From the NCBI GenBank assembly GCA_012839115.1, contig DUNX01000029.1, forward strand, positions 1-34,200: a stretch of 34,200 nt of DNA, in the 5' to 3' direction. Under the pieces are notes generated by a model. It did not search any database and was not told the origin of the DNA. It saw nothing but the letters and a program-made list of their open reading frames with translations. The number at the start of each line of letters is the position of its first letter. Positions within the stretch are counted from its first letter, which is position 1. The translations under genes were made by a program, and so were the position numbers. This stretch comes from Bacillota bacterium. GTDB taxonomy: Bacteria; Bacillota; UBA4882; UBA10575. Of the stretch, positions 1,982-29,351 are shown piece by piece.

Positions 1982-4168
1982 TTAGCTGGAAAAATCAACC
2001 CCTTGCCCCACCTTTTCCAAGGGCGCCAGTGAAAGCAGCATCTCCCGCAGATCATTACCGGGGAAGGCCACAGTAACAGCAGTGTCTCCATCAATCTCCC
2101 GGAGGGCGACAACAACGCCCCGCCCCCATTTGGCATGGATCACCTCATCCCCTAAAGAAAGTACTGGCTTATCTACCACAGGCCCGGACCCGGTCCCGGG
2201 GCCGGCCGGCGCCCCCCGGAAAACCTCCGGGCTGGAGGGTCCCTGCAAAGAGGAGATTTCCTGCAAGGAGGAGACCTCCCTGAGAAAACGGGAGGGGGTA
2301 GAAAGCTGTCTTCCACCGTACATGGTTCTGATCAGCGCATAGGTCAAATACAACCTTTCTTTAGCCCTGGTCATCCCCACGTAACACAATCTTCTTTCTT
2401 CCTCTATTTCCGCGGGTTCCATCAGGCTCCGGCTATGGGGAAAGAGCCCTTCTTCCATACCCACCAGAAAAACCACGGGAAATTCCAGTCCCTTTGCGGA
2501 ATGGATTGTCATCAGGGTTATCCCGTTCTGGTCCCGGTCGTAATGATCCACATCCGCCACTAAGGCCACTTGTTCCAAAAAACGGGCGAGGGACTTGTCA
2601 TCACTGTTCATTTCAAACCCGGAGGTCAAGGCTAAAAATTCATCAAGGTTCTCCAGGCGGCTCCGGGCCTCCACCGTATCTTCCTCCCGGAGTTCCCGGA
2701 GGTAACCGGATTCTTCCAGAATTTCCTTGGTTAGCCGGGAAACGGAGAACTGCTCCCGTTGTTCATAAATCCCCTGGAAAAAGCGGTGAAACCCGCTTAA
2801 GGCATTGACCGCGCGGCTGGTAAGTCCCGGCGCCTCCCCCACCCGTGCCAACCCCTCCAGGAGCGAAAACCCGTTTTCATCAAGGAAAGTAAGAAAACGC
2901 TCCAACGTACCGGCGCCGATCCCCCGCCGGGGGACGTTAATCACCCGCCGCAGGCCCACCCGGTCTTGGGGGTTATGAACCAGCCGCAGGTAGGCGAGGA
3001 TATCCCGGATTTCTTTCCGTTCGTAGAAGCGGAGGGCGCCCACAACTTGGTAAGGGAGTCCCTTCTGCCCCAGCACCTCTTCGAAAGAACGGGACTGCGC
3101 ATTGGTCCGGTATAAAAGGGCACAATCGGACAGGGAATACCCTTCAGCGGTCACCAGCCGTTCAATCTCGGAGATTACTCCCCAGGCCTCTTCTTTTTCA
3201 TCCGCCGCCCGCAAGGCGGTGACCGGCGGGCCGGGCTCGTTCTGTGTCCAAAGGGTCTTCTGCTTCCGGTAAAAATTATGGCGGACCACCTCATTGGCGG
3301 CCTGCAGGATATGCTGGGTGGAACGGTAGTTCTGTTCCAGTTTGATGATTTTTACTTCCGGGTAATCCTTTTCAAATTCGAGAATATTCCGTATATCGGC
3401 ACTGCGGAAACTATAGATCGACTGGTCGTCATCGCCGACCACACAAAGGTTACGGTATTTCGCCGCCAGTAGCCGGGTTAAGACGTACTGGGCATGGTTG
3501 GTATCCTGGTATTCATCGATCATGATGTACCTGAACCTTTCCTGGTACCGGTCAAGGACCGCCGGATGCTCTTGGAAAAGGCGGACCGTGGACATGATCA
3601 GGTCGTCAAAATCCAACGCCGCATTGGCCCGGAGTTTCTTCTGGTATAACGGGTAAACCTTGGCCACGGTGGTTGCCCAAAAATCTGCAGCGCTCTTTTC
3701 ATAGTCCTCCGGGCCGATCAACTTGTTCTTCGCCGCCGAAATGGCTGCCAATAACGCCCGGGGGTGAAAATTCTTCTCACTCAGGTTCAACTCGCGCAAA
3801 ACCTCTTTGACCACGACCAACTGGTCCTGGGTATCAAAGATCGTAAAATCCTTCGGGATCCCGATGGCCGGTCCTTCCCGCCGCAAAACCCGGAGGCAGG
3901 CCGCGTGGAAGGTACTAATCCAGATGGCTTCGCCCCACTCCCCGACCAGGCGGCCAACCCTTTCGCGCATCTCTTCAGCTGCCTTGTTGGTAAAGGTCAC
4001 GGCCAGCAGGTGCTCCCTGGGGACCCCCTTGGTCAGGAGATAGGCAATACGGTAGACCAGGACCCTGGTCTTGCCGCTGCCGGCTCCGGCCAAAATCAAA
4101 AGCGGTCCCTCTGTATGACAGACCGCCTCCTGTTGTGCGGGGTTAAGTTCCGCCAGTAGATTCTCCAA
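1982..4168 (-). CDS. pcrA: UvrD/Rep-family DNA helicase PcrA
   Basis: Superfamily 1A 3'-5' helicase used in repair, plasmid replication and removal of obstacles on DNA. All helicase motifs are visible: GAGSGKTR (Walker A), DEYQDTN (Walker B), GDDDQSIYSFR, QNYRST, and near the C-terminus HSAKGLEFPVVFLVG and CYVGMTRAKERL. The C-terminal tail carries a Tudor-like segment (GDEVIHAKWGRGVVV) typical of PcrA. At about 728 residues it has the usual family length. A GTG at 4177 is possible, but it uses the last base of the AAGGAG site; the in-frame TTG at 4168 lies 8 nt after AAGGAG and gives MENLLAELNPAQQ, so I prefer it. It lies 95 nt downstream of hisB and just upstream of the amidase gene. Confidence 0.97.
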   Translation of the reverse strand: MENLLAELNPAQQEAVCHTEGPLLILAGAGSGKTRVLVYRIAYLLTKGVPREHLLAVTFTNKAAEEMRERVGRLVGEWGEAIWISTFHAACLRVLRREGPAIGIPKDFTIFDTQDQLVVVKEVLRELNLSEKNFHPRALLAAISAAKNKLIGPEDYEKSAADFWATTVAKVYPLYQKKLRANAALDFDDLIMSTVRLFQEHPAVLDRYQERFRYIMIDEYQDTNHAQYVLTRLLAAKYRNLCVVGDDDQSIYSFRSADIRNILEFEKDYPEVKIIKLEQNYRSTQHILQAANEVVRHNFYRKQKTLWTQNEPGPPVTALRAADEKEEAWGVISEIERLVTAEGYSLSDCALLYRTNAQSRSFEEVLGQKGLPYQVVGALRFYERKEIRDILAYLRLVHNPQDRVGLRRVINVPRRGIGAGTLERFLTFLDENGFSLLEGLARVGEAPGLTSRAVNALSGFHRFFQGIYEQREQFSVSRLTKEILEESGYLRELREEDTVEARSRLENLDEFLALTSGFEMNSDDKSLARFLEQVALVADVDHYDRDQNGITLMTIHSAKGLEFPVVFLVGMEEGLFPHSRSLMEPAEIEEERRLCYVGMTRAKERLYLTYALIRTMYGGRQLSTPSRFLREVSSLQEISSLQGPSSPEVFRGAPAGPGTGSGPVVDKPVLSLGDEVIHAKWGRGVVVALREIDGDTAVTVAFPGNDLREMLLSLAPLEKVGQGVDFSS

Positions 4169-4263
4169 AAGTACCACTCCTTAAAGGCCTTTCCTCAGTC
4201 TCCCGTCATGACTCTTCCCATGGCGCGAACCGGGGCAGCCCATCTCCCCGCCCGCAAAAAATC

Positions 4264-4854
4264 TCAAAAAGTGCCTTTTGTCGAAGGAAGGCCTTTCTGC
4301 CGCGGATCAAGGGCAACCGCAGCCCGCAGGGCCCGGCCGGCGGCTTTGAAAGCGGCTTCCAGCAGATGATGCCGGTTATCTCCAGCCAGCCGCTGCAGGT
4401 GGATGGTAATCCCGGCCCTGCTGACCGCCGCGAAAAACTCCTGCGCCAATTCCGGTTCAAACTGCGGACCAATCTTCCCACCGCCCAAGGGTAGATCAAA
4501 ATTAAGGTACGGGCGGCCGCTCAGGTCCACAGCAGCCAGAATCAGGGCGTCATCCATGGGGAGAACCGCACTCCCGTACCGCGAAATCCCTTTTCTCTCC
4601 CCAAGCGCCGCTGTTAAGGCCTGTCCAAAGACCACCCCGACATCTTCCACTGTGTGGTGGGCATCGACCTCCAGATCGCCCTCGGCTTTAATCTCCAGAT
4701 CAAAGCAGCCTTGAAAAGCCAGGTGCGTAAGGAGATGGTCGAAAAAACCAATCCCTGTCTGGATCGTGTAGCGCCCCTCCCCGTCCAGATCCAGGGAGAG
4801 GGAGATTGCTGTTTCCTTGGTCTTTCTCTCAATCGCCGCGCGCCTATTCGTCAA
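4264..4854 (-). CDS. hisB: Imidazoleglycerol-phosphate dehydratase HisB
   Basis: Dehydrates imidazole glycerol phosphate to imidazole acetol phosphate in histidine synthesis. The 196-residue protein is the monofunctional form without the phosphatase domain found in enterobacteria. It shows the two pseudo-repeats with metal-binding histidines, GFFDHLLTH and DAHHTVED in the first half and NRHHLLEAAFKA in the second, and the family ending PSTKGTF. The ATG overlaps the end of hisD by 4 nt (ATGA), which implies translational coupling. Only these two his genes are in the window, so the rest of the pathway must be elsewhere. Confidence 0.98.
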   Translation of the reverse strand: MTNRRAAIERKTKETAISLSLDLDGEGRYTIQTGIGFFDHLLTHLAFQGCFDLEIKAEGDLEVDAHHTVEDVGVVFGQALTAALGERKGISRYGSAVLPMDDALILAAVDLSGRPYLNFDLPLGGGKIGPQFEPELAQEFFAAVSRAGITIHLQRLAGDNRHHLLEAAFKAAGRALRAAVALDPRQKGLPSTKGTF

Positions 4855-6182
4855 TTTTTACCCCGCCCTTCTATATCTTCCAGGCGGATCTCGACCGCCC
4901 TGGCATGGGCCTCCAGACCTTCCACGCGTGCCAGGGCTACTGCCGCCGGTCCAAACTTCTCCAGTCCTTCGCTGCTGTAAGCCACAAAGCTGCTCTTTTT
5001 AACAAAATCATCAACACTCAAGGCAGAAGCAAACCGTGCCGTGCCGCCGGTAGGCAGAACATGGTTGGTCCCGGCCACATAGTCGCCGACGGACTCCGGG
5101 GTAAAGCTCCCCAAAAAGATGGCGCCGGCATGCCGGATCTTGGTCAGCCAGTAATAAGGCTCTGCCACCATCAGTTCCAAATGTTCCGGAGCGGCAAAAT
5201 TAGCGAGGTCCACCGCTTCTGCCAGATCCCTGGTTAGAATCAAACCGCCGTTCTTTTCCAGACTGGCCCGGGCGATCTCTTTTCTTGACAGCGCCTGCAG
5301 CTGCCGTTCCACCTCCCGGGCTGTCTCCGCCAACAAAGACGCACTGGGCGTCAGAAGGGTAGCCGCGGCCTCATCTACCGGTCCGTGCTCGGCCTGGGAG
5401 AGGAGATCCGCCGCCACCAACCGGGGGGAAGCGGTTTCATCCGCGACAATAATGATCTCACTGGGACCGGCCAAAAAATCCAGGCCAACTTCTCCGTAGA
5501 CCAAACGTTTTGCCATGGTCACATAATTATTGCCGGGCCCGACAATTTTGTCCACCCGCGGTACCGTCCCGGTACCAAAAGCCATGGCGGCGACGGCCTG
5601 CGCCCCGCCTAATTTATAGACCTCGGTCACCCCGGCTTCCAGGGCGGCGGCGAGAATGTGCGGTTCCACCGTCCCGTTCTGCGTGGGCGGGGTACACATG
5701 ATAATCCGGGAGACCCCGGCAACCACCGCCGGTAATGCATTCATCAAGACCGAGGAAACCAGCGGCGTCTTGCCGCCGGTCCCGCCAGGGACATATAACC
5801 CGACCGTATCCAAGGGAAGATATCTTTGGCCGAGGACAATGCCTTCCTCCTCGTAGATCGTCCAGGACCGGGAAACCTGCTGCCGGTGATAACGAAGGAT
5901 ATTTTCTTTCGCCGTATGTAAAGCGGCTAGAAACTCCGGCGCCACCTTCCCCCGGGCTGCCTGTAATTCCTCTTCTTTCACCCTAATCCCGGCGGTTGTC
6001 AGGTCCACACCGTCAAAAGCCTTGGTATAATCCACCAGGGCCTTGTCGCCTTCCTGGCGCACCCGGGACAAAATATCCTCAACCGTCCGGCGGATTTCCT
6101 CTTCCGTTTCAGCCGGGAACGGACGGCGGGCCAAAAGTAAACGAATCTCTTCACGATCAATAGCGGTTTTTAAAACCCGCAT
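4851..6182 (-). CDS. hisD: Histidinol dehydrogenase HisD
   Basis: NAD-dependent zinc enzyme carrying out the last two oxidation steps from L-histidinol to L-histidine. The 443-residue sequence has the signature IVGPGNNYVTMAKR, the catalytic-region segment SQAEHGPVD, HLELM, and GAIFLGSFTPESVGDY followed by a GTNHVLPTGG loop. The start ATG follows GGAGGGGG with good spacing. The gene is first in the run hisD-hisB-pcrA-amidase and has its own promoter at 6206-6234. Pairing histidine genes with a housekeeping helicase is an unusual operon content, but nothing suggests a broken gene. Confidence 0.98.
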   Translation of the reverse strand: MRVLKTAIDREEIRLLLARRPFPAETEEEIRRTVEDILSRVRQEGDKALVDYTKAFDGVDLTTAGIRVKEEELQAARGKVAPEFLAALHTAKENILRYHRQQVSRSWTIYEEEGIVLGQRYLPLDTVGLYVPGGTGGKTPLVSSVLMNALPAVVAGVSRIIMCTPPTQNGTVEPHILAAALEAGVTEVYKLGGAQAVAAMAFGTGTVPRVDKIVGPGNNYVTMAKRLVYGEVGLDFLAGPSEIIIVADETASPRLVAADLLSQAEHGPVDEAAATLLTPSASLLAETAREVERQLQALSRKEIARASLEKNGGLILTRDLAEAVDLANFAAPEHLELMVAEPYYWLTKIRHAGAIFLGSFTPESVGDYVAGTNHVLPTGGTARFASALSVDDFVKKSSFVAYSSEGLEKFGPAAVALARVEGLEAHARAVEIRLEDIEGRGKN

Positions 6183-6205
6183 GGTTTCCCCCTCCTGTCA
6201 CGAAT

Positions 6206-6234
6206 AATTTAACATACCTGGTCCGGGGTGTCAA
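6206..6234 (-). promoter_or_regulatory. Sigma-A-type promoter for hisD operon
   Basis: TTGACA (6229-6234), 17 bp spacer, TAAATT (6206-6211), read on the minus strand. It lies about 25 nt before the hisD start and directly after the terminator of the SLH gene. The -35 is a perfect consensus and the -10 matches 4 of 6. Confidence 0.75.
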
Positions 6235-6242
6235 GAAACTGC

Positions 6243-6275
6243 CAAAAAAAACTGGGCCGTATGGAATACGGCCCT
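6243..6275 (-). terminator. Intrinsic terminator after the SLH gene
   Basis: A perfect 9-bp stem, GGGCCGTAT paired with ATACGGCCC around a 3-nt loop (6254-6274), is followed on the minus strand by a run of T residues (A run at 6244-6250 on the plus strand). It lies about 55 nt downstream of the SLH gene stop and separates that gene from the hisD promoter. Confidence 0.9.
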
Positions 6276-6330
6276 TCTATCTGTGAATAACTTATTCGCA
6301 TGTAATATTCAAATACAACAACGGATGAGA

Positions 6331-6864
6331 TTAGGAACCAAGACCAAGCGCGATCCCGACCACGCCCAGGATAATCCCGATGATGCTAAAGGTTTTGGCT
6401 TTCTTGGCGTCTTGTGCTGCGGTCTCAACTTTCCCTTCCATCTCGGCTACCTTTGTCTCCAGCAAGGTTACCCTGACGCCCATGGCATCCAGATCCGCGC
6501 GGAATTCTTCCTCTAAAGCTTTTATCGCGTTGTACAATCTTCCTGCGTCAGTATCTTCGCCTAATTCTTCGGCAATAATGGCTTTGACCTGTTCCTCAGT
6601 GAGGCCAACTGCCTCTGCCATTCTGGCTTCGAATAACCGGAGTACTCTGGCGGTCAGTTCGACCATTTCGTAACGGGTGGCATGCCTTTCTCCCTTAAAG
6701 GTTCCATCGGGATATCCTTTAAGTAACCCGGAGTTGTAGACCAACATAAACTGGTCATATACCCAGTGAGAAGGTTTTGGGGAGTCCTCAAATGCTCCCA
6801 TTGCCACCGGCACGGCTGTAAACAGCATTATCGCCGCAACCAGTAGGACCAGTGCTCTTTTCAC
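6331..6864 (-). CDS. Small SLH / coiled-coil / membrane-anchor envelope protein
   Basis: Likely envelope tether. The 177-residue protein has a signal peptide (residues 1-23, ending VPVAMG), one S-layer-homology domain at about 25-72 with HWVYDQF, GLLKGYPDGTF and TRYEMVELTARVL, a predicted coiled coil at about 110-157, and a C-terminal hydrophobic segment at about 158-175 (FSIIGIILGVVGIALGLG). SLH domains bind pyruvylated or otherwise modified wall polymer, and csaB lies nearby at 8746-9840. The domain order matches Thermotoga Omp-alpha, which links peptidoglycan to the outer membrane, but the rod here is much shorter. GTG start, 8-9 nt after AAGGAGGG. It is transcribed alone, with its own terminator. 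The SLH call is firm; the outer-membrane role is inference. Confidence 0.85.
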   Translation of the reverse strand: MKRALVLLVAAIMLFTAVPVAMGAFEDSPKPSHWVYDQFMLVYNSGLLKGYPDGTFKGERHATRYEMVELTARVLRLFEARMAEAVGLTEEQVKAIIAEELGEDTDAGRLYNAIKALEEEFRADLDAMGVRVTLLETKVAEMEGKVETAAQDAKKAKTFSIIGIILGVVGIALGLGS

Positions 6865-6917
6865 TTTTCTTCCCTCCTTTGTGATAATTCAATAGCCCTT
6901 ACATATATATTCTTTTT

Positions 6918-6946
6918 CTAATATACTATTCGCGGTCCCTTAACAA
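6918..6946 (-). promoter_or_regulatory. Possible promoter for the SLH gene
   Basis: TTGTTA (6941-6946) is followed after 17 bp by TATTAG (6918-6923); a better -10, TATATT, is at 6920-6925 with a 15-bp spacer. It lies in the AT-rich stretch before the GTG at 6864. The call is tentative because neither pairing is ideal. Confidence 0.4.
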
Positions 6947-6999
6947 ATTCCTTCCTATTTCTCAAGATATTTTCTTTTTTTAAAGTCCACCCGGTCATC

Positions 7000-7875
7000 T
7001 CAATCATTAGGATCCGTCATTGTGGAAAAACCTTCCCCCAAAACCTCGTGAACATTAGTAATCACCACAAAGGCCCCGGGATCTTCGGATCTAACCAACT
7101 CTTTTAAACGGGCTGTTTCTCCCCGGTCGACCACACAAAATAAAACCTCCTTGCCACGGCCCGAATAAAGACCACGTCCGCTCAAACCGGTAACACCCCG
7201 TCCCAATTCCTTCAATACCCGTTCGGCAATGGCTTCGGCATGGTCGGAGATGATCAGGGCGCCTTTGGAATAATTGAAACCTTCCATAACCAAATCAATG
7301 GTCTTCCCGGTCACCGCCAGGGCAATTATGGCGTAGAGCATGATCTCGGGAGTTTTAAAAACCAATCCGGCCAAAAGAATCACTAAACCGTCAATCAGCA
7401 TCAGCCCATACCCTGTTGAAACCGGCGCCAGATGGGAGAAGATCCGGGCGGCCAAATCCGTTCCCCCGGTATTCCCCCGGTACCGGAAGGCAATGCCCAT
7501 ACCCAACCCGCCAAGAAACCCCCCGTATAAAGAAGCAAGCAACGGATCCATAGTAAGCGCTTGCGCCATCCCATCCCAGTAGGCCACGGCAGCCGGCAAC
7601 AGCAGAGCGCCAAAAAAACTCTTCACCCAGTGACGGGGGCCGAAAAGCCGCAGATAAACCAGGAAAAGCGGGGTGTTTAAAAAGAAAATCACCAACCCCA
7701 CCGGCCACCGCCATAAGTGATAAAAGATGATGGCGAACCCGCTGACCCCCCCGGCGGCGATCCGGTTGGGGATCAAAAACCAGACCAGGGCTAGGGCTGC
7801 CAGGTTCGTCCCTATAAAAATGCCGGCGTAGTCCATGAGTTCCCGCCGGAGCCTTCCTCCATTATGCCTGGTCAA
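7000..7875 (-). CDS. YitT family membrane protein (DUF161/DUF2179)
   Basis: Integral membrane protein of unknown function. At 291 residues it has the typical family length. The N-terminal two thirds holds about five or six hydrophobic helices with the family signatures NRIAAGGVSGFAII and YRGNTGGTDLAARI. The C-terminal soluble part (from about 215) is the DUF2179 domain. The frame is open much further upstream, to 8166, but that part runs through a direct-repeat region and into tagA-like coding sequence. The TTG at 7875 sits 7 nt after AAGGAGGT, so I place the start there (MTRHNGGRLRRELMDYAGIF). It is last in the polysaccharide/S-layer gene group, after a 119-nt gap. Confidence 0.9.
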   Translation of the reverse strand: MTRHNGGRLRRELMDYAGIFIGTNLAALALVWFLIPNRIAAGGVSGFAIIFYHLWRWPVGLVIFFLNTPLFLVYLRLFGPRHWVKSFFGALLLPAAVAYWDGMAQALTMDPLLASLYGGFLGGLGMGIAFRYRGNTGGTDLAARIFSHLAPVSTGYGLMLIDGLVILLAGLVFKTPEIMLYAIIALAVTGKTIDLVMEGFNYSKGALIISDHAEAIAERVLKELGRGVTGLSGRGLYSGRGKEVLFCVVDRGETARLKELVRSEDPGAFVVITNVHEVLGEGFSTMTDPND

Positions 7876-11038: not shown

Positions 11039-12070
11039 TTACCCCCCCAGCAACTTCTCCTTCTCTCCCGAAGGAATCGCCACTGACCAGGTGCCCAGCT
11101 TCCCCTGGTCGACCTCGCCTGTCTCCCGGCGCGGGTCAACCCGGATCAAAACCCTTTTCCCTTGCGGTTCCCAACGGCGCAAAGCGAGGGTATAGAGGTG
11201 CGACGGGAAATCCTCCGCCAGGTCGAGCGCGACCTCTTCCCGTTCACCACCGGTTTCATAGACGACAATCCCGCGGTTTCCTTCCTGATCTTCGGTCTCT
11301 ATGGCGAGGTATCGCCCGTCGGGGGAATAGATCAACAAATCAGCGGTTCCCCCCGGCAAAACCGTAACCGGGAGAAAAGGATTTTCCGCCGCCGGTCCGG
11401 ACTCCTCCCAGTTCAAAAAGGCAACCAACCCGTTTTCGCCCTGTGTGCCAAAGGCCATCCCCTTCTCCAGCGGCGAAAGGACCAGAGTGGAATAGGCTTC
11501 CCTGCCTACCGCTTGCCCTTCCGTCTCCGGGGGCAGATCCCCAAGGGTAATAAGCCGGGCTTCTCTCTTTTTCCCGTTCTCATCCCTGTTCCACGTCAAT
11601 ACGGCCTCTTCCGCCCGGACCCGGGTTCGCCTGAGCAAACGGGCTGAGGAGATCCGGTATTCTTCCTCATCAAAACTGACAATAAGATCTTCCGTGAGAT
11701 TATCCGTGCGCAGTGGGTCCGCTACCACTTCCTGCACGAGAACGGTAAAACCGAACCGTCCATCCGTAAGTACCGATTCATCCTGAATGCGGCAGGCGAC
11801 AAAACCGGGGCTGCCCGTGGCCTGCAAAGCCAAACCATCTTCCCGGTAATCGTTCAATGCTTCGGAAGTAAGGTAAGCCCTGAGTTCTTCTTCAGGTTCA
11901 CCGGCGATCCTGGCATGTAAAAAAGAATAAACAACCTCCCTGGCTTCGCTCAACTCCCCGCGTGGGCCGCCGGATTCCGGCGCCGGCGGCTCTAAATATT
12001 CCCATAAAGGACAACCTTGAAGAAAAAAAGCCAGAACAAAAAGGGGAATTTTCTTGACACCCGTAAACAA
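11039..12070 (-). CDS. Predicted lipoprotein with beta-propeller-like C-terminus
   Basis: Function unknown. The frame is open far upstream, but the TTG at 12070 lies behind GGGAGG (9 nt) and yields a good lipoprotein signal, M-F-T-G-V-K-K followed by a hydrophobic stretch and the lipobox LQGC at about residue 20. The mature protein (343 residues in all) begins with a Pro/Glu-rich spacer. It then has an alpha/beta segment (about 40-165) resembling NTF2-like or GerM-like lipoprotein domains, and a C-terminal part with TolB-like strands (IYSPDGRYLAIETED, GKRVLIRVDP). It is divergent from the usher-like gene at 12302 and lies 99 nt before the polysaccharide genes. It could serve either neighbourhood; no catalytic motif is visible. 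Confidence 0.75.
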   Translation of the reverse strand: MFTGVKKIPLFVLAFFLQGCPLWEYLEPPAPESGGPRGELSEAREVVYSFLHARIAGEPEEELRAYLTSEALNDYREDGLALQATGSPGFVACRIQDESVLTDGRFGFTVLVQEVVADPLRTDNLTEDLIVSFDEEEYRISSARLLRRTRVRAEEAVLTWNRDENGKKREARLITLGDLPPETEGQAVGREAYSTLVLSPLEKGMAFGTQGENGLVAFLNWEESGPAAENPFLPVTVLPGGTADLLIYSPDGRYLAIETEDQEGNRGIVVYETGGEREEVALDLAEDFPSHLYTLALRRWEPQGKRVLIRVDPRRETGEVDQGKLGTWSVAIPSGEKEKLLGG

Positions 12071-12301: not shown

Positions 12302-14980
12302 ATGAAACGGAATTTTCTCTGTTTGGCCAGTATAATCTTGATATTTGCCTTTTCTCTTTCTTCCCCGGTTTATTATGCAGCGGCGGAAGATAGTCCATCC
12401 CCCGCTTTGGTTCTTTCTGTTCCTTCCGAACAAGAAGGAGAACCGGGAGAGTTTATCACATATCTGTTTCAAATCCAAAACCAGTCCGCCACCGGAAAGA
12501 CCCTCACCGCCTCGGCCGTCTCTACGCAAGACTGGCCGCTGTTGACAAGTGAGGAACAGATTACTATTCCCCCTGGTGGCCAAGGACTTTTTGCTGTTTC
12601 CATCTGGATTCCCGACTCCGCCTATGGCGGCACCGAAGATTCCCTGACTGTGAATTTTACCGGTCCGGAGTTTTCCTCTTCCTACAACCTCACCACCAAG
12701 GTGCGGATTACTACCAGATTCTCTTGTCTCTACCCGGAGAGGAGCACCGGTCAGCCGGGGGAACTGCTGAAAATCCCGGTAACCTTGGTCAACGAGGGCA
12801 GTATCACCCGGAGCTTCTCCCTGGGGGCGGTCTCGGAAAAGCGGTGGCGGATGAGTTGGGAGACCGCCGGTGTTACCCTGGCGCCGGGTGAGAAAAGGAC
12901 AACCCATCTTCAGGTGAATATTCCGCCAACCGTCGCCGCAGGTACTGTCGATTCCTTGTATTTACTGGTAACAGCGGACGCGGTGGAAGAAGCCGAAGCG
13001 AGCAGTGAAGAACACCGCCTCTCCGTTGTGGTACGAAAAACCCACCATCTGCCCGTGGAAAGAGAAAGTATTATCCCGCTTTACTCCAATTTCAGTTTGA
13101 CCTTGGCCCCGCCCCTGGACCCGGCAGACTTTTTTACCTGGGCGACTACCCTTGGGCTCAACGGTGAAATCCATCCCTTTCACTACAACTTTTATCTGGC
13201 CGGAGAGAGCGAGGAGGGAATCTTCTCCCCTTCCGCACTATTTCTCGGGCTCACAGGGGACCGATGGTATATGCAGGCCGGGCGGTTCTCTTCCGGCTGG
13301 CCCGGGTTGATTGCTCCCCCGTCGACCGCGGCCAATCTCTATCTGCAAACCCGGGGCGCCAAACCCTGGAGTTTTTGGCTGGGCGCAGGCAAAGAATTCA
13401 TCGCCCCCACCTGGCTTGGGGGGATCATCGACCAACCGAAAGAAAACCTCCGCTGGATCCTGATGGTTCCTCTAGAAAAATACCGTCTCCACGGAGTTTT
13501 GGAAACACGCTATTCCCCCGCAGCTCTCAGGGATTGGCGCTGGTCTTACCGGCACGCCCTGGGTTTTGATGAAAACCGCCTCTTGAACCAGGGCGAGTTT
13601 TCCCTGCAAAGATCGGCACTGGATTGGCGGTTCATCGCCACCCTGTCCGGAGGGGAAAATTTCCACTTTGAGTACGGGCCGGAGGAGGAAGATGAGAGCG
13701 CATATACCGGCGGGTACGCTACCCCGTTTGGCGCTGCCGGGTTAAATATGGAATATTACCTTTCTCCCCGTCTGACCCTGGAACCGGGGTTAACCTTCCG
13801 CGTTGCCACCGTGGGTGATAAACCGCGTACCAGTTATACCCTGCAAAACCGTTTTTCTTTTTCCGGTTCCTACCTGCTCCTCCGGCTCAGGCAGGATCTG
13901 TACGGTCAGACAGAGAAAGGCGTTGAACTCGGTTTCTCCAACGAATGGCGGCAACCGGCAGCCAACAATTACCAGGGGACGGCCGCCCTTTCCTGGAGCA
14001 GGAAGGATACCACCGATACCGTAGGTTTATATGGCCGCTTGCGGCGTTGGTTTTTTACCTCTTCTTATCTGGAAGCCGCTTACGAGCAGCGCTGGGAGAA
14101 TACCCCGGCCGGTTTCTCCTCTCCCCTGGCCCTGGGTTTAAAATGGTACCACCTGCTTTTTTCAAACTGGGAGGGTTATGGTAGTATCTATTTCAATGAT
14201 TCCCCTCTTACGTCCGGTTATTATTCGTTGCAGGCCGCCACCGGCTACTGGTTTACCCCCGGTACCTTCCTGCAACTCCGGGCTACCGCCCACTTGGAGG
14301 GGAAGGAAACCACCTTGTCCAAAATCGAACTCTACCTTTTCTACCGCGACCTGTACTTCCTCCCGGCGCCTTGGGGAGGTATCGAAGGCCGGGTTTTCCT
14401 GGACCTGAACCGGAACGGCCGTTTCGACCCGGGTGAACCGGGAATCTCCGGGGTATCCATTTGCCTGGACGGAGAGGTCAAAGCCGCAACTGATAAACGC
14501 GGGTATTTTCTCCTTTCCCGGTTGAAAAAAAGCGAGTACCTCCTCTCCTTTTCCCCGGAAGAAAGCGACCGGTATCTTGCGCCTGCGGCAAAACTGGTCA
14601 GTCTGGAGGAAAACCGGATCTTGACCGTTGAAATCCCCGCCTCGCCGCCGCTGGACCTAAAAGGTCTGGTCTTTATCGATAAAAACAGGAACGGCCGGCC
14701 CGACCCGGATGAGCCGCCGGCCGGCCGGGTGCAACTCCTGCTTTACCCGGTTGACGACGACGAACCGCTTGCCACCTTCGCAACAAACCCGGACGGGTCT
14801 TTCTTCCTGCCCGGCCTTTTCCCTGGAAGTTACCGTTTAGAGGCTGTCGCCGAAACTCTGCCCGGGTTTACCACAGCCGAACCAGTTGTCCTGACCGTCC
14901 AACAAGACTCATCTCCGCTTTTGCTCCCGTTCCCCCTCTACGAAGAAGAACGCGAGATCGATTTCACCTTTTTCGAATAA
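12302..14980 (+). CDS. Usher-like secreted beta-barrel protein with Ig-like flanks
   Basis: Predicted outer-membrane protein of 892 residues. Residues 1-28 form a signal peptide ending YYAAA. Two NEW3/CARDB-like Ig domains follow at about 31-140 and 143-250. Residues about 262-690 consist of alternating aromatic/polar strands with short turns, as in a transmembrane beta-barrel. Two SdrD-B-like Ca-binding-type domains follow: FLDLNRNGRFDPGEPG at about 696 and FIDKNRNGRPDPDEPP at about 789. N-terminal domain, barrel, then two C-terminal beta domains is the order and rough length of chaperone-usher ushers, but I see no definite plug domain or usher signature. It is convergent with the subunit operons. 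ATG with GGGAGG 11 nt upstream. An alternative is a barrel adhesin or porin-like protein; an in-frame TTG at 12236 lacks a ribosome site. Confidence 0.6.
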   Translation: MKRNFLCLASIILIFAFSLSSPVYYAAAEDSPSPALVLSVPSEQEGEPGEFITYLFQIQNQSATGKTLTASAVSTQDWPLLTSEEQITIPPGGQGLFAVSIWIPDSAYGGTEDSLTVNFTGPEFSSSYNLTTKVRITTRFSCLYPERSTGQPGELLKIPVTLVNEGSITRSFSLGAVSEKRWRMSWETAGVTLAPGEKRTTHLQVNIPPTVAAGTVDSLYLLVTADAVEEAEASSEEHRLSVVVRKTHHLPVERESIIPLYSNFSLTLAPPLDPADFFTWATTLGLNGEIHPFHYNFYLAGESEEGIFSPSALFLGLTGDRWYMQAGRFSSGWPGLIAPPSTAANLYLQTRGAKPWSFWLGAGKEFIAPTWLGGIIDQPKENLRWILMVPLEKYRLHGVLETRYSPAALRDWRWSYRHALGFDENRLLNQGEFSLQRSALDWRFIATLSGGENFHFEYGPEEEDESAYTGGYATPFGAAGLNMEYYLSPRLTLEPGLTFRVATVGDKPRTSYTLQNRFSFSGSYLLLRLRQDLYGQTEKGVELGFSNEWRQPAANNYQGTAALSWSRKDTTDTVGLYGRLRRWFFTSSYLEAAYEQRWENTPAGFSSPLALGLKWYHLLFSNWEGYGSIYFNDSPLTSGYYSLQAATGYWFTPGTFLQLRATAHLEGKETTLSKIELYLFYRDLYFLPAPWGGIEGRVFLDLNRNGRFDPGEPGISGVSICLDGEVKAATDKRGYFLLSRLKKSEYLLSFSPEESDRYLAPAAKLVSLEENRILTVEIPASPPLDLKGLVFIDKNRNGRPDPDEPPAGRVQLLLYPVDDDEPLATFATNPDGSFFLPGLFPGSYRLEAVAETLPGFTTAEPVVLTVQQDSSPLLLPFPLYEEEREIDFTFFE

Positions 14981-14997
14981 CCACCTAACCACCGGTT

Positions 14998-15495
14998 CTA
15001 AAGTACGATGAGGTCATAGGCCAGCTGCACATGATATCCAGCCGCGTCCATGGACGCCACGGCGGATTCTTCTTCCGGAAGGGCGAGCCGGAAATGGATC
15101 TCAATCTCTCGCCATCCTCCCGTATGGCCTCCGGACAACAACGGGCTTGGCAGCGGGGAAAGTTCAGCCCAGTCCTCCCCGTTCAGCGACCACTCCACCT
15201 GTGCCAGGGGAAAATCCCCGTTATTCCCGCCTTTGATCCTCAGTTGCCACCGGCTTTTTTGATTGGAGAGGATCCGGATTTTGGCCTGTTCCACCGTGCG
15301 GTCCTGGGCAAAAACCAACTCAAAATCGTTGGTTTCCACCTGGAGTACCGGCGGAACCCGTACGGTCAGACGGTGGGCAGCGGACTCCTGTCCCGCTTGC
15401 ACCGGGAAGGAAAGCGCTATTGCCAAGAGAAGGGAAAAAAATAGGGCGCTTGTACGCGCCCGCCCTGCCGTTACCATAAGGCTTTTGGTGAACAT
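14998..15495 (-). CDS. Secreted beta-sandwich subunit D (pilin/WxL-like)
   Basis: Unknown surface or periplasmic subunit of 165 residues with a signal peptide (cleavage after about residue 35, FPVQA). The mature part is all-beta. It shares with subunit A an N-terminal strand HRLTVRVPPVLQVE and with all three others the motif WQLRIKG, followed by a second Trp in VEWSLNGEDW. The last strand is GYHVQLAYDLIVL; position and hydrophobic alternation match the last strands of A, B and C, but it is more divergent. The gene stands alone behind its own promoter and a class I c-di-GMP riboswitch. Start ATG, 8 nt after AAAGGGG. It ends 17 bp from the end of the usher-like gene, facing it. Confidence 0.75.
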   Translation of the reverse strand: MFTKSLMVTAGRARTSALFFSLLLAIALSFPVQAGQESAAHRLTVRVPPVLQVETNDFELVFAQDRTVEQAKIRILSNQKSRWQLRIKGGNNGDFPLAQVEWSLNGEDWAELSPLPSPLLSGGHTGGWREIEIHFRLALPEEESAVASMDAAGYHVQLAYDLIVL

Positions 15496-15542
15496 CTTCA
15501 ACACCCCTTTGCCCGGCAGGAGCACCGGAGAAACCGGGGAAG

Positions 15543-15576
15543 AAAAAACAGGTTCTTCGGCGGCCCGGCGATCCTG
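15543..15576 (-). terminator. Intrinsic terminator inside class I riboswitch leader
   Basis: CAGGATC (plus-strand positions 15570-15576) can pair with GAACCTG (15549-15555), 6 of 7 positions, and is followed by six T residues and a C on the minus strand (15543-15548). The 3' arm AACCTG is also needed for the basal P1 helix of the aptamer, so the two structures exclude each other. It lies about 50 nt before the subunit D start. Confidence 0.7.
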
Positions 15577-15653
15577 GTGAACTGCGCGTCACTTTAGATC
15601 CGTAGCTTTGCGTCCCCGCCTTTCGACGGGTTTGCCTTTTCGGAAACCTACTG
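15549..15653 (-). promoter_or_regulatory. Class I cyclic di-GMP riboswitch (GEMM-I)
   Basis: Read on the minus strand, the leader contains the hallmark core GGCAAACC, a helix capped by a CGAAAG tetraloop, GGGACGCAAAGC, then GGATCTAA, and the closing motif GCCGGGC-GCCGAAG. These are the conserved blocks of the class I c-di-GMP aptamer, in the right order and spacing. The basal helix pairs CAG-TA-GGTTT (5' side, near 15653) with GAACCTG (15549-15555). Binding of ligand should hold that helix and prevent the overlapping terminator, giving an ON switch for subunit D. The match to family consensus is from memory, not from a covariance search. An AT palindrome GGTAAATATTTACC lies just upstream at 15660-15673. 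Confidence 0.93.
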
Positions 15654-15704
15654 GGTTTAGGTAAATATTTACCCTTTGGTTATCCTTTATTCAATTGTAA
15701 TATA

Positions 15705-15733
15705 AGTATACATCAGAAAAAAGGTTCTGTCAA
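15705..15733 (-). promoter_or_regulatory. Sigma-A-type promoter of the class I riboswitch transcript
   Basis: TTGACA (15728-15733), 17 bp, TATACT (15705-15710) on the minus strand; -35 is perfect and -10 matches 5 of 6. It lies between the end of subunit C (15776) and the aptamer, so subunit D is transcribed separately from the A-chaperone-B-C operon. Transcription would begin near 15698, about 45 nt before the aptamer. Confidence 0.85.
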
Positions 15734-15775
15734 TACCCTCCATGGGAAAACATACTGTCGCGATTAAACCAACAG

Positions 15776-16264
15776 TTACCAGCAGAATAATGTTACCCGC
15801 ATCTCGCTGGCATATTCCCCGGCCGGTTCCCATTGGTCGAGTTGTAACCGGAAATAAAGGAATAATAAATGGAGGATCCATTCGTTCCCCGGGAAATCCC
15901 TCGACCGGGCCAGGATCAACTCCTGGCGTGCCGGTTTCATCGATTGATAACTACCCGTCCAGTTTCTCCATTCCATCCGTTGGCGCTTGATAATATGATT
16001 CCCCGCAGCAAAATCATTGCCGTTAAGGCTTAACTGCCAGTTTCGTCCGGGCTGTGGGCACTGAAAGGTAATAATAAGGGGCGTTCTTGTTTCCCAGTAG
16101 TCACCCCCGGACGAACCCGGCGCCGGTAATCCCAGATCAACTTCACCGGGGAAGAGCGCCAGCCAGGCATCGTATTCAGGGTAGTAGTCGATGAGCCCGC
16201 CAAAGACCAAACCCGGGAAAAAAATGACCACTAATCCCAAGAGAACCGGTACCTTTTTCCGCAA
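15776..16264 (-). CDS. Secreted beta-sandwich subunit C (pilin/WxL-like)
   Basis: Unknown surface or periplasmic subunit, 162 residues. A short signal peptide (MRKKVPVLLGLVVIFFPGLVFG) precedes an all-beta domain. Like subunit B it has VDLGLP near the start, then the shared NWQLSLNGNDF motif, MEWRNWTGSYQSM (compare LRWQMGNSDYRSM in B), and a final strand GEYASEMRVTLFCW. The ending in Cys-Trp is unlike the others. TTG start at 16264, preceded by AAGGTGAAGGGG. It is last in the A-chaperone-B-C operon, 44 nt after B. It is clearly paralogous to B; relation to known pilin or WxL families needs a profile search. Confidence 0.75.
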   Translation of the reverse strand: MRKKVPVLLGLVVIFFPGLVFGGLIDYYPEYDAWLALFPGEVDLGLPAPGSSGGDYWETRTPLIITFQCPQPGRNWQLSLNGNDFAAGNHIIKRQRMEWRNWTGSYQSMKPARQELILARSRDFPGNEWILHLLFLYFRLQLDQWEPAGEYASEMRVTLFCW

Positions 16265-16308
16265 ACCCCTTCACCTTCTTTCCTAAGTCGATTCCGGGAA
16301 GCGACCAA

Positions 16309-16872
16309 TCAGGGCAAAAACAGGGAATATGTAATGGTGCTGATATAATCCCCTTCATATTCATCGCCCGCCAATTCCAGCAAATAAGAGATGGGGAACT
16401 GTTGCCCGGCAAGAATTTCATCGGTAAAATTATGCCAATCCATCACCAACAGGGATTCCCCATCAGAGGGCATAGAGCGGTAATCACTGTTTCCCATTTG
16501 CCACCGCAGGCGGTTGATGGGAATCAAAGTCCCCGCCGTGTTCCGGAAATCCGTACCCGAGATATGGATCTCCCACTGGGAGGCGATATTCGTCCGGAAA
16601 GAAAGGGTCACTACATTATCTCCGCGAAAATAAGTCCTGCCCCCGGCGGTCTGCGGTAGACCAAGGTCAACATAGTCGGTGGACAGATAAAACTCGGCGC
16701 GGGGTGGAACAGTAAATTTAAGGGTAAATTCGGCCGCAAAAACAGAAGAAGAACAAAACAGAACTAGAAAAGCGGCCAGCCACGCCCACGCCCGCCTACG
16801 TGCTTGGGCGCTTGCGTCGGCGCTGATGTATGCATACGCACCCGCCTGCGGGCAGAAACGGCTCTCTTTCAT
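16309..16872 (-). CDS. Secreted beta-sandwich subunit B (pilin/WxL-like)
   Basis: Unknown surface or periplasmic subunit, 187 residues. The signal peptide is odd: a 30-residue polar N-region rich in Ala, Tyr and Arg precedes the hydrophobic core WLAAFLVLFCSSSVFA. The mature protein begins AEFTLKFTVPPRAEFYL, then VDLGLP, the shared QWEIHISGTDF, LRWQMGNSDYRSM, and a final strand GDYISTITYSLFLP. This resembles subunit C most and has the same overall plan as A. ATG start with GAGGTG 8 nt upstream, inside the end of the chaperone-like gene (12-nt gap), so expression is coupled to it. The extended N-region lies in a GC-rich stretch unlike its surroundings. Confidence 0.77.
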   Translation of the reverse strand: MKESRFCPQAGAYAYISADASAQARRRAWAWLAAFLVLFCSSSVFAAEFTLKFTVPPRAEFYLSTDYVDLGLPQTAGGRTYFRGDNVVTLSFRTNIASQWEIHISGTDFRNTAGTLIPINRLRWQMGNSDYRSMPSDGESLLVMDWHNFTDEILAGQQFPISYLLELAGDEYEGDYISTITYSLFLP

Positions 16873-16884
16873 CCCGCTTTCACC

Positions 16885-17706
16885 TCATCTTTCCTCTTCT
16901 TCCGGCACGTCCACTTTTAACAGGGCTTGGGCCCCCAATAACTTCTTGCTACCGCAATCCAGGATGGCCAGGACCACATAGTCCCCGGCCGGTAAGGACA
17001 TGGCTTCGGCAAAAACCATCTCCCGCTCGCCGCCGGGCAAAACCACCGTTTCCGGTAAAGAGAATCTTTTTACCGTTTTTCCCCGGCTATCCCGGATTTC
17101 CACCCGTCCGGACGGATGCAATTGCGTAACCCCGGAATTGACAAAAAGCACCCGGCCGGAAAGGCCGTTTTCCCACTCGACGGTAAAATCCTTTATTCTC
17201 CCAGCCTTCTCTGCTTCTCCCCGGACCGTAAGGAAAACTCCCCCGCCTACCCGGCCGGTCACCACCATTCCGGAGCCCTCTTGTGGGACTTCCGGTACGG
17301 TCTCGACAAAAAAGCCGCTCCAGTAATCGCCGCCTGCCGTTTCCGGCGGAACGGCTCCAAAGATCCTGAAGATCCGCTCTTCACCGGCGGGAATAATCAT
17401 TTCCGCGGGTTCAATCTGCAGCCAGGAAACGACCGAACGGGGCCCGACGGTGGGCAAAAACTCCACTTCGCCCCTGCGGTTGAAGACCCAATCTTGAAAA
17501 TAGATCTTCACCCGGAAGTCCCGGTCTGCCGCACCGGTTACTGCAAAGGACCCCTCAACATGGCCACCCGGTTCCACCTCTATTTCCCAGCGGGGCGGGG
17601 AGATCGAGACGTTCAGGGCCAACGTTGTTTCCGCCGCCAAGGCAAAAAAGCCCACCACTGAGGTGAGCAAAAAAAGACAATACAAGTTTGGCCGTTTTTT
17701 TCGCAA
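16885..17706 (-). CDS. PapD-like tandem Ig-domain periplasmic chaperone candidate
   Basis: Exported protein of 273 residues with signal peptide (about 1-31, ending TTLAL) and two beta-sandwich domains. Domain 1 (about 32-150) runs from NVSISPPRWEIEVEPGG to LQIEPAEMIIPAGEERIFRI and GDYWSGFFVETVPE, resembling the PapD/FimC N-terminal domain with its P-x-R and pre-G1 pattern. Domain 2 (about 170-265) has SGRVLFVNSG, RVEIRDSRGK and LPAGDYVVLAILDCG. DUF916 of the WxL systems has a related fold and is the main alternative, but there is no C-terminal membrane anchor here, which favours a soluble chaperone. TTG start at 17706, 8 nt after AGGAAGG; the longer frame would overlap subunit A. It lies 40 nt after subunit A. 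Confidence 0.7.
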   Translation of the reverse strand: MRKKRPNLYCLFLLTSVVGFFALAAETTLALNVSISPPRWEIEVEPGGHVEGSFAVTGAADRDFRVKIYFQDWVFNRRGEVEFLPTVGPRSVVSWLQIEPAEMIIPAGEERIFRIFGAVPPETAGGDYWSGFFVETVPEVPQEGSGMVVTGRVGGGVFLTVRGEAEKAGRIKDFTVEWENGLSGRVLFVNSGVTQLHPSGRVEIRDSRGKTVKRFSLPETVVLPGGEREMVFAEAMSLPAGDYVVLAILDCGSKKLLGAQALLKVDVPEEEER

Positions 17707-17746
17707 CAGTTTTTCCTTCCTTATCTGCGCTGGTGCGTTGGGTTCA

Positions 17747-18250
17747 TCAGGGCACAAACAGCGTGTAAGTAACTTCATTACTATATTCACCGGCATAGAC
17801 ATCACTAAAGTCACTGTCAATTTTGAGTTCGTAAAGGAACTCAATGGTCTTCTCTTTTGCCCCCGTGTTCAGGGAGGTGTCAAGGACGGCTTCCTGACCC
17901 AAAATGTTATAGGTTTCATTGTTGTCGACGATCCTTATATTCAACGCACTAACCGGTAATTCCTCCTGCCCGTCCTTAAATTTACCGGCCTCAACCTTCA
18001 ATTGCCAATTGACTTTTTTGTTACACCGGTACGTCAAGGTGAATGATTCATCCGTCGTGTATGTACCGGCTTCTTCAATGTCTTCAAATTCAATGGTTTG
18101 ACCAGCCTTGGTCAATTCCAGTTTGGTCACCTCGGGGACGGTGACCTTCAGTCTGTGAAAGGCTTCAGCCTCGACACTCGCCGCCATTGCCGCCCCGGCC
18201 GCTGATAAAACTAACAAGAAGGTCAACAGAAGGATGCTTGTCCGCTTCAA
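17747..18250 (-). CDS. Secreted beta-sandwich subunit A, first gene of the operon
   Basis: Unknown surface or periplasmic subunit; about 167 residues with signal peptide ending SAAGAAMAA. The mature domain starts with an alternating strand HRLKVTVPEVTKLEL (like subunit D), then has NWQLKVEAGKF, LNIRIVDNNETY and the final strand GEYSNEVTYTLFVP. The W-x-L motif and last strand also resemble WxL domains and spore-coat-U/fimbrial subunits. Three in-frame starts crowd the AGGAGG site: ATG 18256 (2 nt away), GTG 18253 (5 nt) and TTG 18250 (8 nt); TTG has the best spacing. Being first after the class II riboswitch, it is probably the most abundant product, as expected for a major subunit. Confidence 0.78.
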   Translation of the reverse strand: MKRTSILLLTFLLVLSAAGAAMAASVEAEAFHRLKVTVPEVTKLELTKAGQTIEFEDIEEAGTYTTDESFTLTYRCNKKVNWQLKVEAGKFKDGQEELPVSALNIRIVDNNETYNILGQEAVLDTSLNTGAKEKTIEFLYELKIDSDFSDVYAGEYSNEVTYTLFVP

Positions 18251-18296
18251 CACCATTACCTCCTTTAAGAATTTTCTCTTTAAACATTCCCAGAAA

Positions 18297-18329
18297 CAAA
18301 AAACCGACGCTCCTATTATTAGCGCCGGT
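18297..18329 (-). terminator. Intrinsic terminator of the class II riboswitch
   Basis: On the minus strand ACCGGCGCT (18321-18329) pairs with AGCGTCGGT (18303-18311), nine pairs with one G-U, followed by TTTTTTG. It lies about 45 nt before the subunit A start, so it acts as an attenuator rather than an operon end. Its 5' arm overlaps the 3' strand of aptamer helix P1 (18318-18324). Confidence 0.9.
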
Positions 18330-18393
18330 TTCACTACTCGCTCCCTCCAGACCAAGTGACCACGTACTACCTGGAGATCATTGCTTCGCTAAT
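18318..18393 (-). promoter_or_regulatory. Class II cyclic di-GMP riboswitch
   Basis: The minus-strand leader matches, by memory, the class II c-di-GMP aptamer solved from Clostridium acetobutylicum. Shared blocks in order are A-GCAATGAT, GGT, GG-TCACTTG, a short hairpin, then GAGTAGTG-AAACCG-C. Helix P1 is perfect: ATTAGCG (18387-18393) with CGCTAAT (18318-18324). An inner helix CTCCAG/CTGGAG is also perfect. P1 and the terminator compete for 18321-18324, so ligand binding should disrupt the terminator: an ON switch. The terminator and P1 are seen directly; the class assignment should be tested with the Rfam c-di-GMP-II model. Confidence 0.85.
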
Positions 18394-18427
18394 GGTATAG
18401 CACTGATGAAATTTTTACCGTAATAAC

Positions 18428-18456
18428 AGATTACAACAAATTGTTCTATTTGTCAA
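18428..18456 (-). promoter_or_regulatory. Sigma-A-type promoter of the subunit A operon
   Basis: TTGACA (18451-18456), 17 bp, TAATCT (18428-18433) on the minus strand. It lies in the gap after alr and gives a transcript starting near 18421, about 28 nt before the class II aptamer. Confidence 0.85.
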
Positions 18457-28997: not shown

Positions 28998-29351
28998 CTA
29001 GCGCAACGGGACCAGTTCCAAACTAATCTCCAGCGCGGTATTGACCTTTTTCATGGTCTCTTCATCCAGTTCGCCAATCTTCTCGGTCAGCCTCTTTTTG
29101 TCAATCGTCCGCAATTGCTCACAAAGAATCACCGAATCACGCTCCAACGGGCTGTGGTTCTTCTTAATCTCCACATGGGTAGGTAATTTCGCCCGTTTAA
29201 TCCTGGAAGTAACAGCCGCCACGATTGTCGTGGGGCTGTAATTGTTCCCGATGTCATTTTGCACGATCAAAACCGGTCGCAGCCCACCCTGTTCCGAGCC
29301 GATGACCGGATTAAGATTGGCAAAAAAAAGATCTCCCCGTTTAACCTGCAA
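28998..29351 (-). CDS. MazF/NdoA family endoribonuclease toxin
   Basis: Sequence-specific mRNA interferase. The 117-residue protein closely follows Bacillus NdoA (EndoA): [31 protein letters not shown], then [14 protein letters not shown], and [20 protein letters not shown]. The conserved loop with Arg after GSEQGGL and the Ser/Thr of VTS are in place. TTG start immediately after the antitoxin stop, with GGGGG 8 nt upstream inside the antitoxin gene, so toxin synthesis depends on antitoxin translation. The gene appears intact. Confidence 0.94.

Follow-up and report, generated by a model that had tools for sequence, protein, structure and literature searches.

A likely divergent chaperone-usher-type locus in a Bacillota bacterium and its relation to WxL/WxLIP surface complexes

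Chaperone-usher pili are organelles of Gram-negative bacteria, with a classical usher barrel of 24 strands, and most Bacillota have a single membrane. TasA fibres are built by strand exchange, and we know of no chaperone or usher for TasA. According to Hassan et al. (PMC10599100), the surface protein WxLIP of Enterococcus and other monoderm Bacillota (DUF916-DUF3324) consists of two perpendicular Ig domains and a membrane helix. Here we describe a six-gene locus found in a stretch of 34,200 nucleotides (hereafter the window: positions 1 to 34,200 of contig DUNX01000029.1) from the 2.35-Mb draft genome of a Bacillota bacterium (GCA_012839115.1). It encodes four small subunit-like proteins (S1-S4), a tandem-Ig protein (CHAP) and an 892-residue usher-like protein (USH). 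We consider it likely that they constitute a divergent chaperone-usher-type system of two-membrane Bacillota, in which CHAP is the chaperone, S1-S4 are the fibre subunits and USH is the outer-membrane platform. This reading builds on the gene order, on the homology of CHAP and on the co-occurrence of CHAP with usher-like genes and on Omp85 in the window's genome. Structure models add an S1 fold with a free arm, from a good model, and a barrel in USH, from a poor one.

In a literature search that left most subscription papers and bioRxiv out of its scope, no report of a chaperone-usher system in Bacillota (Limnochordia, diderm Firmicutes, Negativicutes) was found, nor any connection of WxLIP to chaperones of the PapD type or to pairing by donor strands. 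PMC10599100 uses none of the words PapD, chaperone and donor in its main text, and the accessible part of PMC7549365 holds nothing on a link between chaperone-usher systems and WxLIP. PMC4793230, as far as its accessible text goes, left the chaperone-usher pathway out of its survey.

Gene order, CHAP and the subunits

All six open reading frames (ORFs) of the locus are present and intact between positions 12302 and 18256. S1 (17747-18256), CHAP (16885-17706), S2 (16309-16872), S3 (15776-16264) and S4 (14998-15495) lie on the minus strand and face USH (12302-14980) on the plus strand; each of the six proteins carries an N-terminal signal sequence, as judged by eye. The start of CHAP is uncertain, and its longest ORF extends to 17844. 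An initial annotation of this DNA had described the same six proteins, which stand, and had drawn the locus up to 18456, which puts its limit some 200 bp upstream of where S1 probably starts. All 13 family loci (the window included) whose contigs reach all six genes keep S1-CHAP-S2-S3-S4 in this order, facing USH; the count includes L037, where USH is cut, and leaves out L032, L034 and L036, whose contigs end too early. Of the order's 17 genomes, 15 contain a whole or partial USH, and a sixteenth (G009) matched at the C-terminal domains only. As USH is only 26-30% identical outside the genus, the arrangement outlives most of the sequence. CHAP is 38-42% identical there, and the order being kept 13 times out of 13 despite such low identity of both proteins, the six-gene locus is more than a chance grouping.

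Pfam gave no match for CHAP, and PapD_N (PF00345) was without a match across the window's genome; Pfam and NCBIfam together offered no useful name for CHAP or the subunits. A hydropathy scan of CHAP detected no C-terminal membrane helix, in agreement with the initial description of a tandem-Ig protein lacking a membrane anchor. A profile of 32 CHAPs (A6), all taken from loci outside the anchored group described below, was compared with families of solved structure. The best match was Enterococcus EfmWxLIP1 (E=2.2e-10), aligned with positions 39-269 of the 270 in the profile, followed by the E. coli fimbrial chaperone EcpB (E=0.0043) and a ciliary protein (E=0.085). EfmWxLIP1 was also matched by the wider profile A5 (E=6.7e-10). 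The profile of the window's family only (A1) matched no fimbrial or WxLIP structure, and the link emerged only with the wider A5 and A6.

In a profile-profile comparison with ten E. coli K-12 chaperones, signal peptides included, CHAP gave a match probability (Prob) of 95 and E=3.8e-8. Removal of the signal peptides lowered the probability from 95 to 83, still clear of the controls: the mature profile reached Prob 82.8, E=9.4e-6 and a score of 44.6 over 179 columns, compared with 12.7 for the reversed template and no more than 17 for any of 20 column shuffles. EcpB alone, in a run without a control, gave Prob 86.8 and E=4.2e-6. The EcpB donor strand ARIGTILVVAP was aligned with GRVGGGVFLTVRG of CHAP, and the Arg at this place is kept in 26 of 34 CHAP rows. 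An N-terminal Arg of CHAP was aligned with the TR motif of FimC; it is kept in the 13 family rows and in only 5 of the 21 others. According to the accessible text of PMC4654587, archaic and alternative chaperones hold the subunit C-terminus by means of an Arg and a Tyr; a Tyr late in domain 2 of CHAP, a candidate for the latter, is kept in 31 of the 34 rows. A Pfam scan of the 34 rows at E<=0.1 returned mostly weak matches, among them fn3_5 in 12 rows, WxLIP_PGBD in 5 and PapD_N in 4. Judged by sequence profiles, CHAP is homologous to WxLIP and, weakly, to fimbrial chaperones (EcpB). The resemblance to PapD that had been annotated is thus invisible to Pfam and becomes apparent by profile comparison, in which CHAP presents itself as a two-Ig-domain protein homologous to PapD/EcpB chaperones.

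A core motif common to the subunits had also been proposed, and it holds within the family. There, of all columns in an alignment of 26 subunit sequences, only a Trp is invariant; by eye, x-[LIV] follows it. A Tyr located 11 residues ahead of the C-terminus of S2 comes close to invariance. In a wider set of 34 subunit rows, the Trp also varies. Pfam gave no match of note for S1-S4, and among the 34 rows SCPU touches two, with a best E of 0.16. The model of S1 is good (pLDDT 87.8, pTM 0.75). In it, residues 1-18 of what we assume to be the mature chain belong to no sheet, and the final strand spans residues 137-142 of 144; an incomplete Ig fold with an N-terminal donor arm and a C-terminus at the last strand was modelled in this way for S1 only. 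By eye, an arm was seen in S4 (AHRLTVRVP), which ends near its last strand, and in S2 (EFTLKFTVP), which ends in TYSLFLP. Since an alternating-hydrophobic arm was not seen by eye in S3, this protein would possibly suit the tip, an end subunit or a terminator.

Two early matches of the subunits were discarded. A match to E. coli pilins (S1, Prob 75) leaned on the signal peptides and was lost with the mature parts, and a match of profile A4 to WxL (Prob 95) proved to be the signal peptide, the best mature value being Prob 6.7 (S1 against WxL), which is not significant.

When the S1 model was compared with known structures by Foldseek, two PapG pilin domains ranked first (E=1.6e-4), followed by the TasA fibre at rank 3 and PapE. 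Among the 50 listed rows, 31 are chaperone-usher pilins or adhesins, and the rest include integrins, adaptins and glycosidases. VIA ranked TLP-1b (Z 9.8) and TLP-1a (Z 9.6) first, each over 140 residues; a glycosidase (8.9) came next, ahead of CsuA/B (8.1) and a type 1 pilus subunit (8.0). We take TLP to mean TasA-like protein, and these ranks would suit a TasA-like fibre in which S1-S4 self-assemble by strand exchange without a chaperone, USH merely letting them out. We regard such a fibre as very unlikely, as a chaperone homologue stands among the subunit genes in all 13 family loci whose contigs reach the six genes, PF12389 (presumably TasA/camelysin) is absent among the 19 families matched by the 34 subunits at E<=1, and the 31 Foldseek rows point to pilins or adhesins of chaperone-usher systems.

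USH and a second usher type

USH begins with two Ig domains (residues ~34-248), continues with a predicted beta-barrel (~250-690) and ends with two SdrD_B-like domains (~692-880). Its Pfam matches include SdrD_B (E=5e-16, two stretches) and Ig-type domains. The two Ig domains at the N-terminus are homologous to CHAP (E=2.7e-6), so that USH may have acquired its docking domain by capturing a chaperone copy; the C-terminus is homologous to that of the second usher type described below (E=8.5e-29). The AlphaFold2 model places 23 strands, each at least five residues long, within residues 253-688, several ten-residue blocks having a pLDDT between 66 and 82. Foldseek placed FimD at ranks 1-3 (E=2.6e-12 to 4.7e-12). 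In VIA, the first row was a polysaccharide outer-membrane secretin (Z 13.5, 217 residues), and the translocation domain of FimD (13.4, 247 residues), FimD (13.2, 327 residues) and PapC (12.8, 328 residues) were also listed. The barrel is shared in part with three relatives from another family of the class (Prob 68), and one profile built from mixed USH types gave a weak match to E. coli ushers, near the C-terminal end (Prob 32). An outer-membrane-barrel-like middle of this protein, as initially annotated, is thus visible in the modelled strands and in the fold matches, at low confidence. From these two sources we take USH to be a putative outer-membrane barrel usher, the sequence of its barrel having no usher match.

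The locus lies between an alanine-racemase-like gene (by eye) and a group of surface-polymer genes that is kept next to USH within the window's family. WecG/TagA, pyruvyl transferase and O-antigen-ligase families were found near the locus, and the other scanned neighbours belong to ordinary families. Together with the secretin in the first VIA row, the conserved position of these three families could mean that USH is the polysaccharide export or porin barrel of the polymer genes, placed by CHAP and S1-S4 incidentally. Of the explanations considered, we find this the least probable: USH-type genes accompany CHAP in 34 of 41 Omp85 genomes from many families, and the other CHAP loci of the window's family (L038-L041), checked within the family, show none of those polymer genes nearby.

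The Pfam Usher family (PF00577) was found above cut-off in none of 398 genomes of the phylum, the window's genome included. Below the cut-off it matched in one (G207, E=1.6e-4), in an ORF that one short ORF separates from a CHAP gene broken up by stretches of N (L143). This protein and fourteen others encoded beside CHAP homologues make up a second usher type of 15 members, three of them in the window's family (L038, L039 and L040). Compared with eight E. coli ushers, its profile gave Prob 97.9, E=3.6e-13 and a score of 122 over 673 columns; the reversed control gave Prob 0.3, and the best of 20 shuffles scored 28. Taken singly against an HMM of the E. coli ushers, only L143 was significant (8.5e-9), the others being at 0.037 or worse. 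The aligned part includes the region that we take to be the plug. At L040 and L098 the second usher type has a copper-amine-oxidase-N-like N-terminus, in the position of the Ig pair of USH. On the evidence of these profiles, the second usher type supports a chaperone-usher pathway in the phylum.

CHAP topology, the cell envelope and the proposed assembly

Three Omp85 matches above cut-off were found in the window's genome, and the bacterium is therefore probably two-membraned; this status is read from Omp85 only, since LptD, also sought in this genome, gave no match. Within the window's family, G001, G002, G005 and G014 each have Omp85, and in the phylum sample it was matched in 102 of 398 genomes. 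The CHAP profile A5 matched 75 of the 398 (E<=1e-6). Omp85 is present in 68 of these 75 CHAP-family genomes, compared with 34 of the other 323.

The loci were surveyed at 61 single-CHAP sites in 48 genomes, drawn from 54 of the 75 CHAP-family genomes and five from the search of the order; 20 of the 75 (G013 and G311 among them) and further matches in surveyed genomes were left out. A gene was counted as USH-type if its ORF had at least 450 aa, matched the HMM at E<1e-3 and lay no more than 2.5 kb from CHAP. The HMM used (USHx) was built partly from large CHAP-adjoining genes matching the family profile, and the USH-type counts are raw counts. In the 41 genomes with Omp85, none of the 53 CHAP loci encodes a membrane helix at the C-terminus; 42 include a neighbouring USH-type gene, and 48 have a subunit-like neighbour by loose criteria. 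One locus outside these 53 (L027 in G015, a genome assigned to neither Omp85 group) has USH and no helix. The six genomes without an Omp85 match hold seven loci, of which five have the helix (G036, G039, G176, G223 and G287), none has USH and six have a subunit-like neighbour; a stricter first cut-off for the helix gave four instead of five, as G039 scores 1.8 against 1.85. Both helix-less loci among the seven belong to G374. Because its congeners G166, G240, G263 and G353 carry Omp85, G374 may be two-membraned, and its loci may come from a two-membrane cell whose assembly has a gap. CHAP topology follows the envelope. In a tree of 61 CHAP rows, which has long branches, one change is enough to separate the anchored from the usher-linked forms, though this split is weakly supported (65/79). 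The anchored loci are therefore not independent events, and Fisher values calculated from 54 and 7 loci make the association look stronger than it is.

CHAP homologues were also seen in other settings. Twelve of the surveyed genomes, all with Omp85, gave 14 long ORFs instead of or besides single-CHAP loci, which were taken as two CHAP-type units each (L100, positions 3441-7487, and the similar L089, L090, L099, L103, L104, L107-L111 and L113). In L100, the double-CHAP ORF is followed by a secretin gene (PF00263, E=1e-44), a hint that the double-CHAP protein uses another partner for export. At L084 (10273-11820) and L086 (9456-10841), in genomes without an Omp85 match, a CHAP homologue is followed by a membrane helix and then by a DivIVA-like coiled coil (sub-threshold in Pfam, E=1e-4 and 5e-5), as though a protein of the cell pole or of division were linked to the surface complex. 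The window's own genome contains a second CHAP locus on contig C58 (L093, 325-6812), with a subunit-like ORF, CHAP, a 1052-aa relative of USH with LysM domains at its end, and an unassigned ORF of 563 aa.

WxL domains (PF13731) occur in 3 of 383 genomes of the phylum, in two of them above cut-off. Around the true WxL genes (G253 and G075), four of five stretches hold a tandem-Ig protein that matches the CHAP profile (1e-12 to 5e-7) and has a helix at its C-terminus. These proteins, the rank of EfmWxLIP1 as the best solved relative of CHAP by sequence, and the predicted insertion of a DUF916 hairpin into WxL (PMC10599100) would fit a WxL/WxLIP-type complex adapted to two membranes, in which CHAP stays bound as a structural partner, USH is an outer-membrane anchor or adhesin and no fibre is made. 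We consider this unlikely. No WxL domain was found in S1-S4 (E<=1), the 34 subunit rows or the window's genome, the mature S1, S2 and S4 profiles do not match WxL, and CHAP is without an anchor. Moreover, the USH-type gene stands beside CHAP at those 42 of the 53 loci in Omp85 genomes, and one of the types is an usher by profile. The initial annotation had offered kinship with WxL/DUF916 as the alternative to a chaperone-usher system; its choice of relative was correct for CHAP, and the anchor and WxL domain that would complete it are missing. The system of the window is probably linked by descent to WxL/WxLIP, and instead of excluding each other, the two ideas seem to describe opposite ends of a single family.

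Several observations weigh against a chaperone-usher assignment. The Arg typical of non-classical chaperones is aligned with a Ser in CHAP (EcpB alignment). For S1, Foldseek lists only four matches at E<=0.001, and VIA ranks two TLP proteins first, above CsuA/B. The mature S1, S2 and S4 profiles gave no significant match to E. coli pilins, the best being S1 with Prob 4.4, E=0.009 and a score of 20.7 over 114 columns (at most 16 in 20 shuffles); as mature sequences show no significant match, it is by structure that the subunits are identified. The USH model is poor (pLDDT 63.5, pTM 0.34), its whole-chain TM-scores against the top FimD rows are 0.16-0.18, and Ig-rich ciliary proteins rank close behind. 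Compared with E. coli ushers, the second usher type, CHAP and E. coli chaperones, the USH barrel alone gave Prob <=0.83. A plug was not recognised in USH, no inserted domain being evident in the modelled barrel, which is a weak region of the model, and the N-terminus is an Ig pair, unlike the usher N-terminal domain. Eleven of the 53 CHAP loci in Omp85 genomes have no recognised USH: L085, L058, L130 and L129 lie at contig ends, L112, L106 and L138 lie near an unmatched ORF of 692-1114 aa, and no USH candidate was recognised near L096, L102, L097 and L141. At several other loci (e.g. L082, L091, L098 and L133), the USH match falls mainly in the C-terminal domains.

Since the window's genome has neither PapD_N nor Usher by Pfam, and homology of the USH barrel to ushers is unproven, formal membership in the chaperone-usher class is incomplete. 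Among the families named in the initial annotation, WxL is likewise absent by Pfam, SCPU gave only the two weak subunit rows, and WxLIP was reached by the CHAP profile. Its proposal, a divergent system of chaperone and usher in a Bacillota lineage with two membranes, draws support from Omp85, the CHAP homology, the S1 fold and the FimD/PapC fold matches of USH. It is supported only in part, because USH shows no usher homology in the sequence of its barrel, no recognised plug and an Ig pair at the N-terminus, because donor-strand pairing is presumed, and because the WxL alternative is half right.

On balance, we favour a chaperone-usher-type system, for which we infer strand donation, docking, polymerisation, export and assembly itself as follows. 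S1-S4 would be secreted to the periplasm as incomplete Ig-like folds. CHAP, as a free two-Ig chaperone, would lend its G1 strand to the subunits and hold their C-terminus in the interdomain cleft. The CHAP-subunit complex would then dock on USH, where the N-terminal Ig pair would receive it. Finally, the N-terminal arms would join the subunits by strand exchange, and a thin fibre would pass to the surface.

Neighbouring genes and relation to known systems

A putative lipoprotein gene (Lipo, 11039-12040, minus strand), with an FFLQGC box recognised by eye and no Pfam match, is the divergent neighbour of USH. It adjoins USH in 12 of 13 family loci (the window included), the remaining locus being cut, and is probably not part of the machine. 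Further away, a PemK/MazF-type toxin gene was found at 28998-29633, with a short ORF upstream on the same strand that is perhaps its partner.

As the chaperone-like CHAP is also a relative of the Gram-positive surface protein WxLIP, the data suggest that two surface systems thought to be unrelated share an origin. Chaperone-usher pili and monoderm WxL/WxLIP complexes could both derive from one ancestral chaperone-subunit system, in which the chaperone is anchored in cells with one membrane, and free and paired with a barrel in cells with two; both states occur in this phylum, and two unlike barrels, USH and a FimD homologue with a plug, would have served the same chaperone family. We hold the chances for and against this scenario to be about equal. 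If our readings are true, two-membrane Bacillota gain a surface-fibre system, a family is at hand whose chaperone changes its topology with the outer membrane, and the origin of the pathway can be tested. They would also predict that WxLIP acts on WxL proteins as PapD does on pilins.

Among the known systems, TasA and TasA-like fibres resemble the locus in the fold of S1 (VIA Z 9.8). The second usher type (e.g. L143, L039 and L040) adjoins CHAP homologues as USH does and has the SdrD_B-like C-terminus in common with it. Unlike that of USH, its barrel is homologous to FimD by profile, the presumed plug region included.

The alternative (EcpB/EcpA/EcpC) and archaic (Csu) systems share with the locus a two-domain chaperone homologous by profile (EcpB), a pilin-like fold as modelled for S1 (CsuA/B, Z 8.1) and an usher-like protein with a predicted barrel. 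They differ from it in that the window's genome has no match to PF00345 or PF00577 and no plug was recognised in USH, which has an Ig pair in place of the usher N-terminal domain and an SdrD_B-like C-terminus. In addition, the Arg conserved in non-classical chaperones (accessible text of PMC4654587) has no aligned counterpart in CHAP.

WxLIP differs from CHAP in its C-terminal membrane helix and in its partners, which carry the WxL domain that the partners of CHAP lack. A barrel-type protein is present here, whereas none is described for WxLIP in the accessible part of PMC10599100. Like CHAP, however, WxLIP consists of two tandem Ig domains, homologous to those of CHAP over nearly the full length, and is encoded in a cluster with small beta-sandwich partners.

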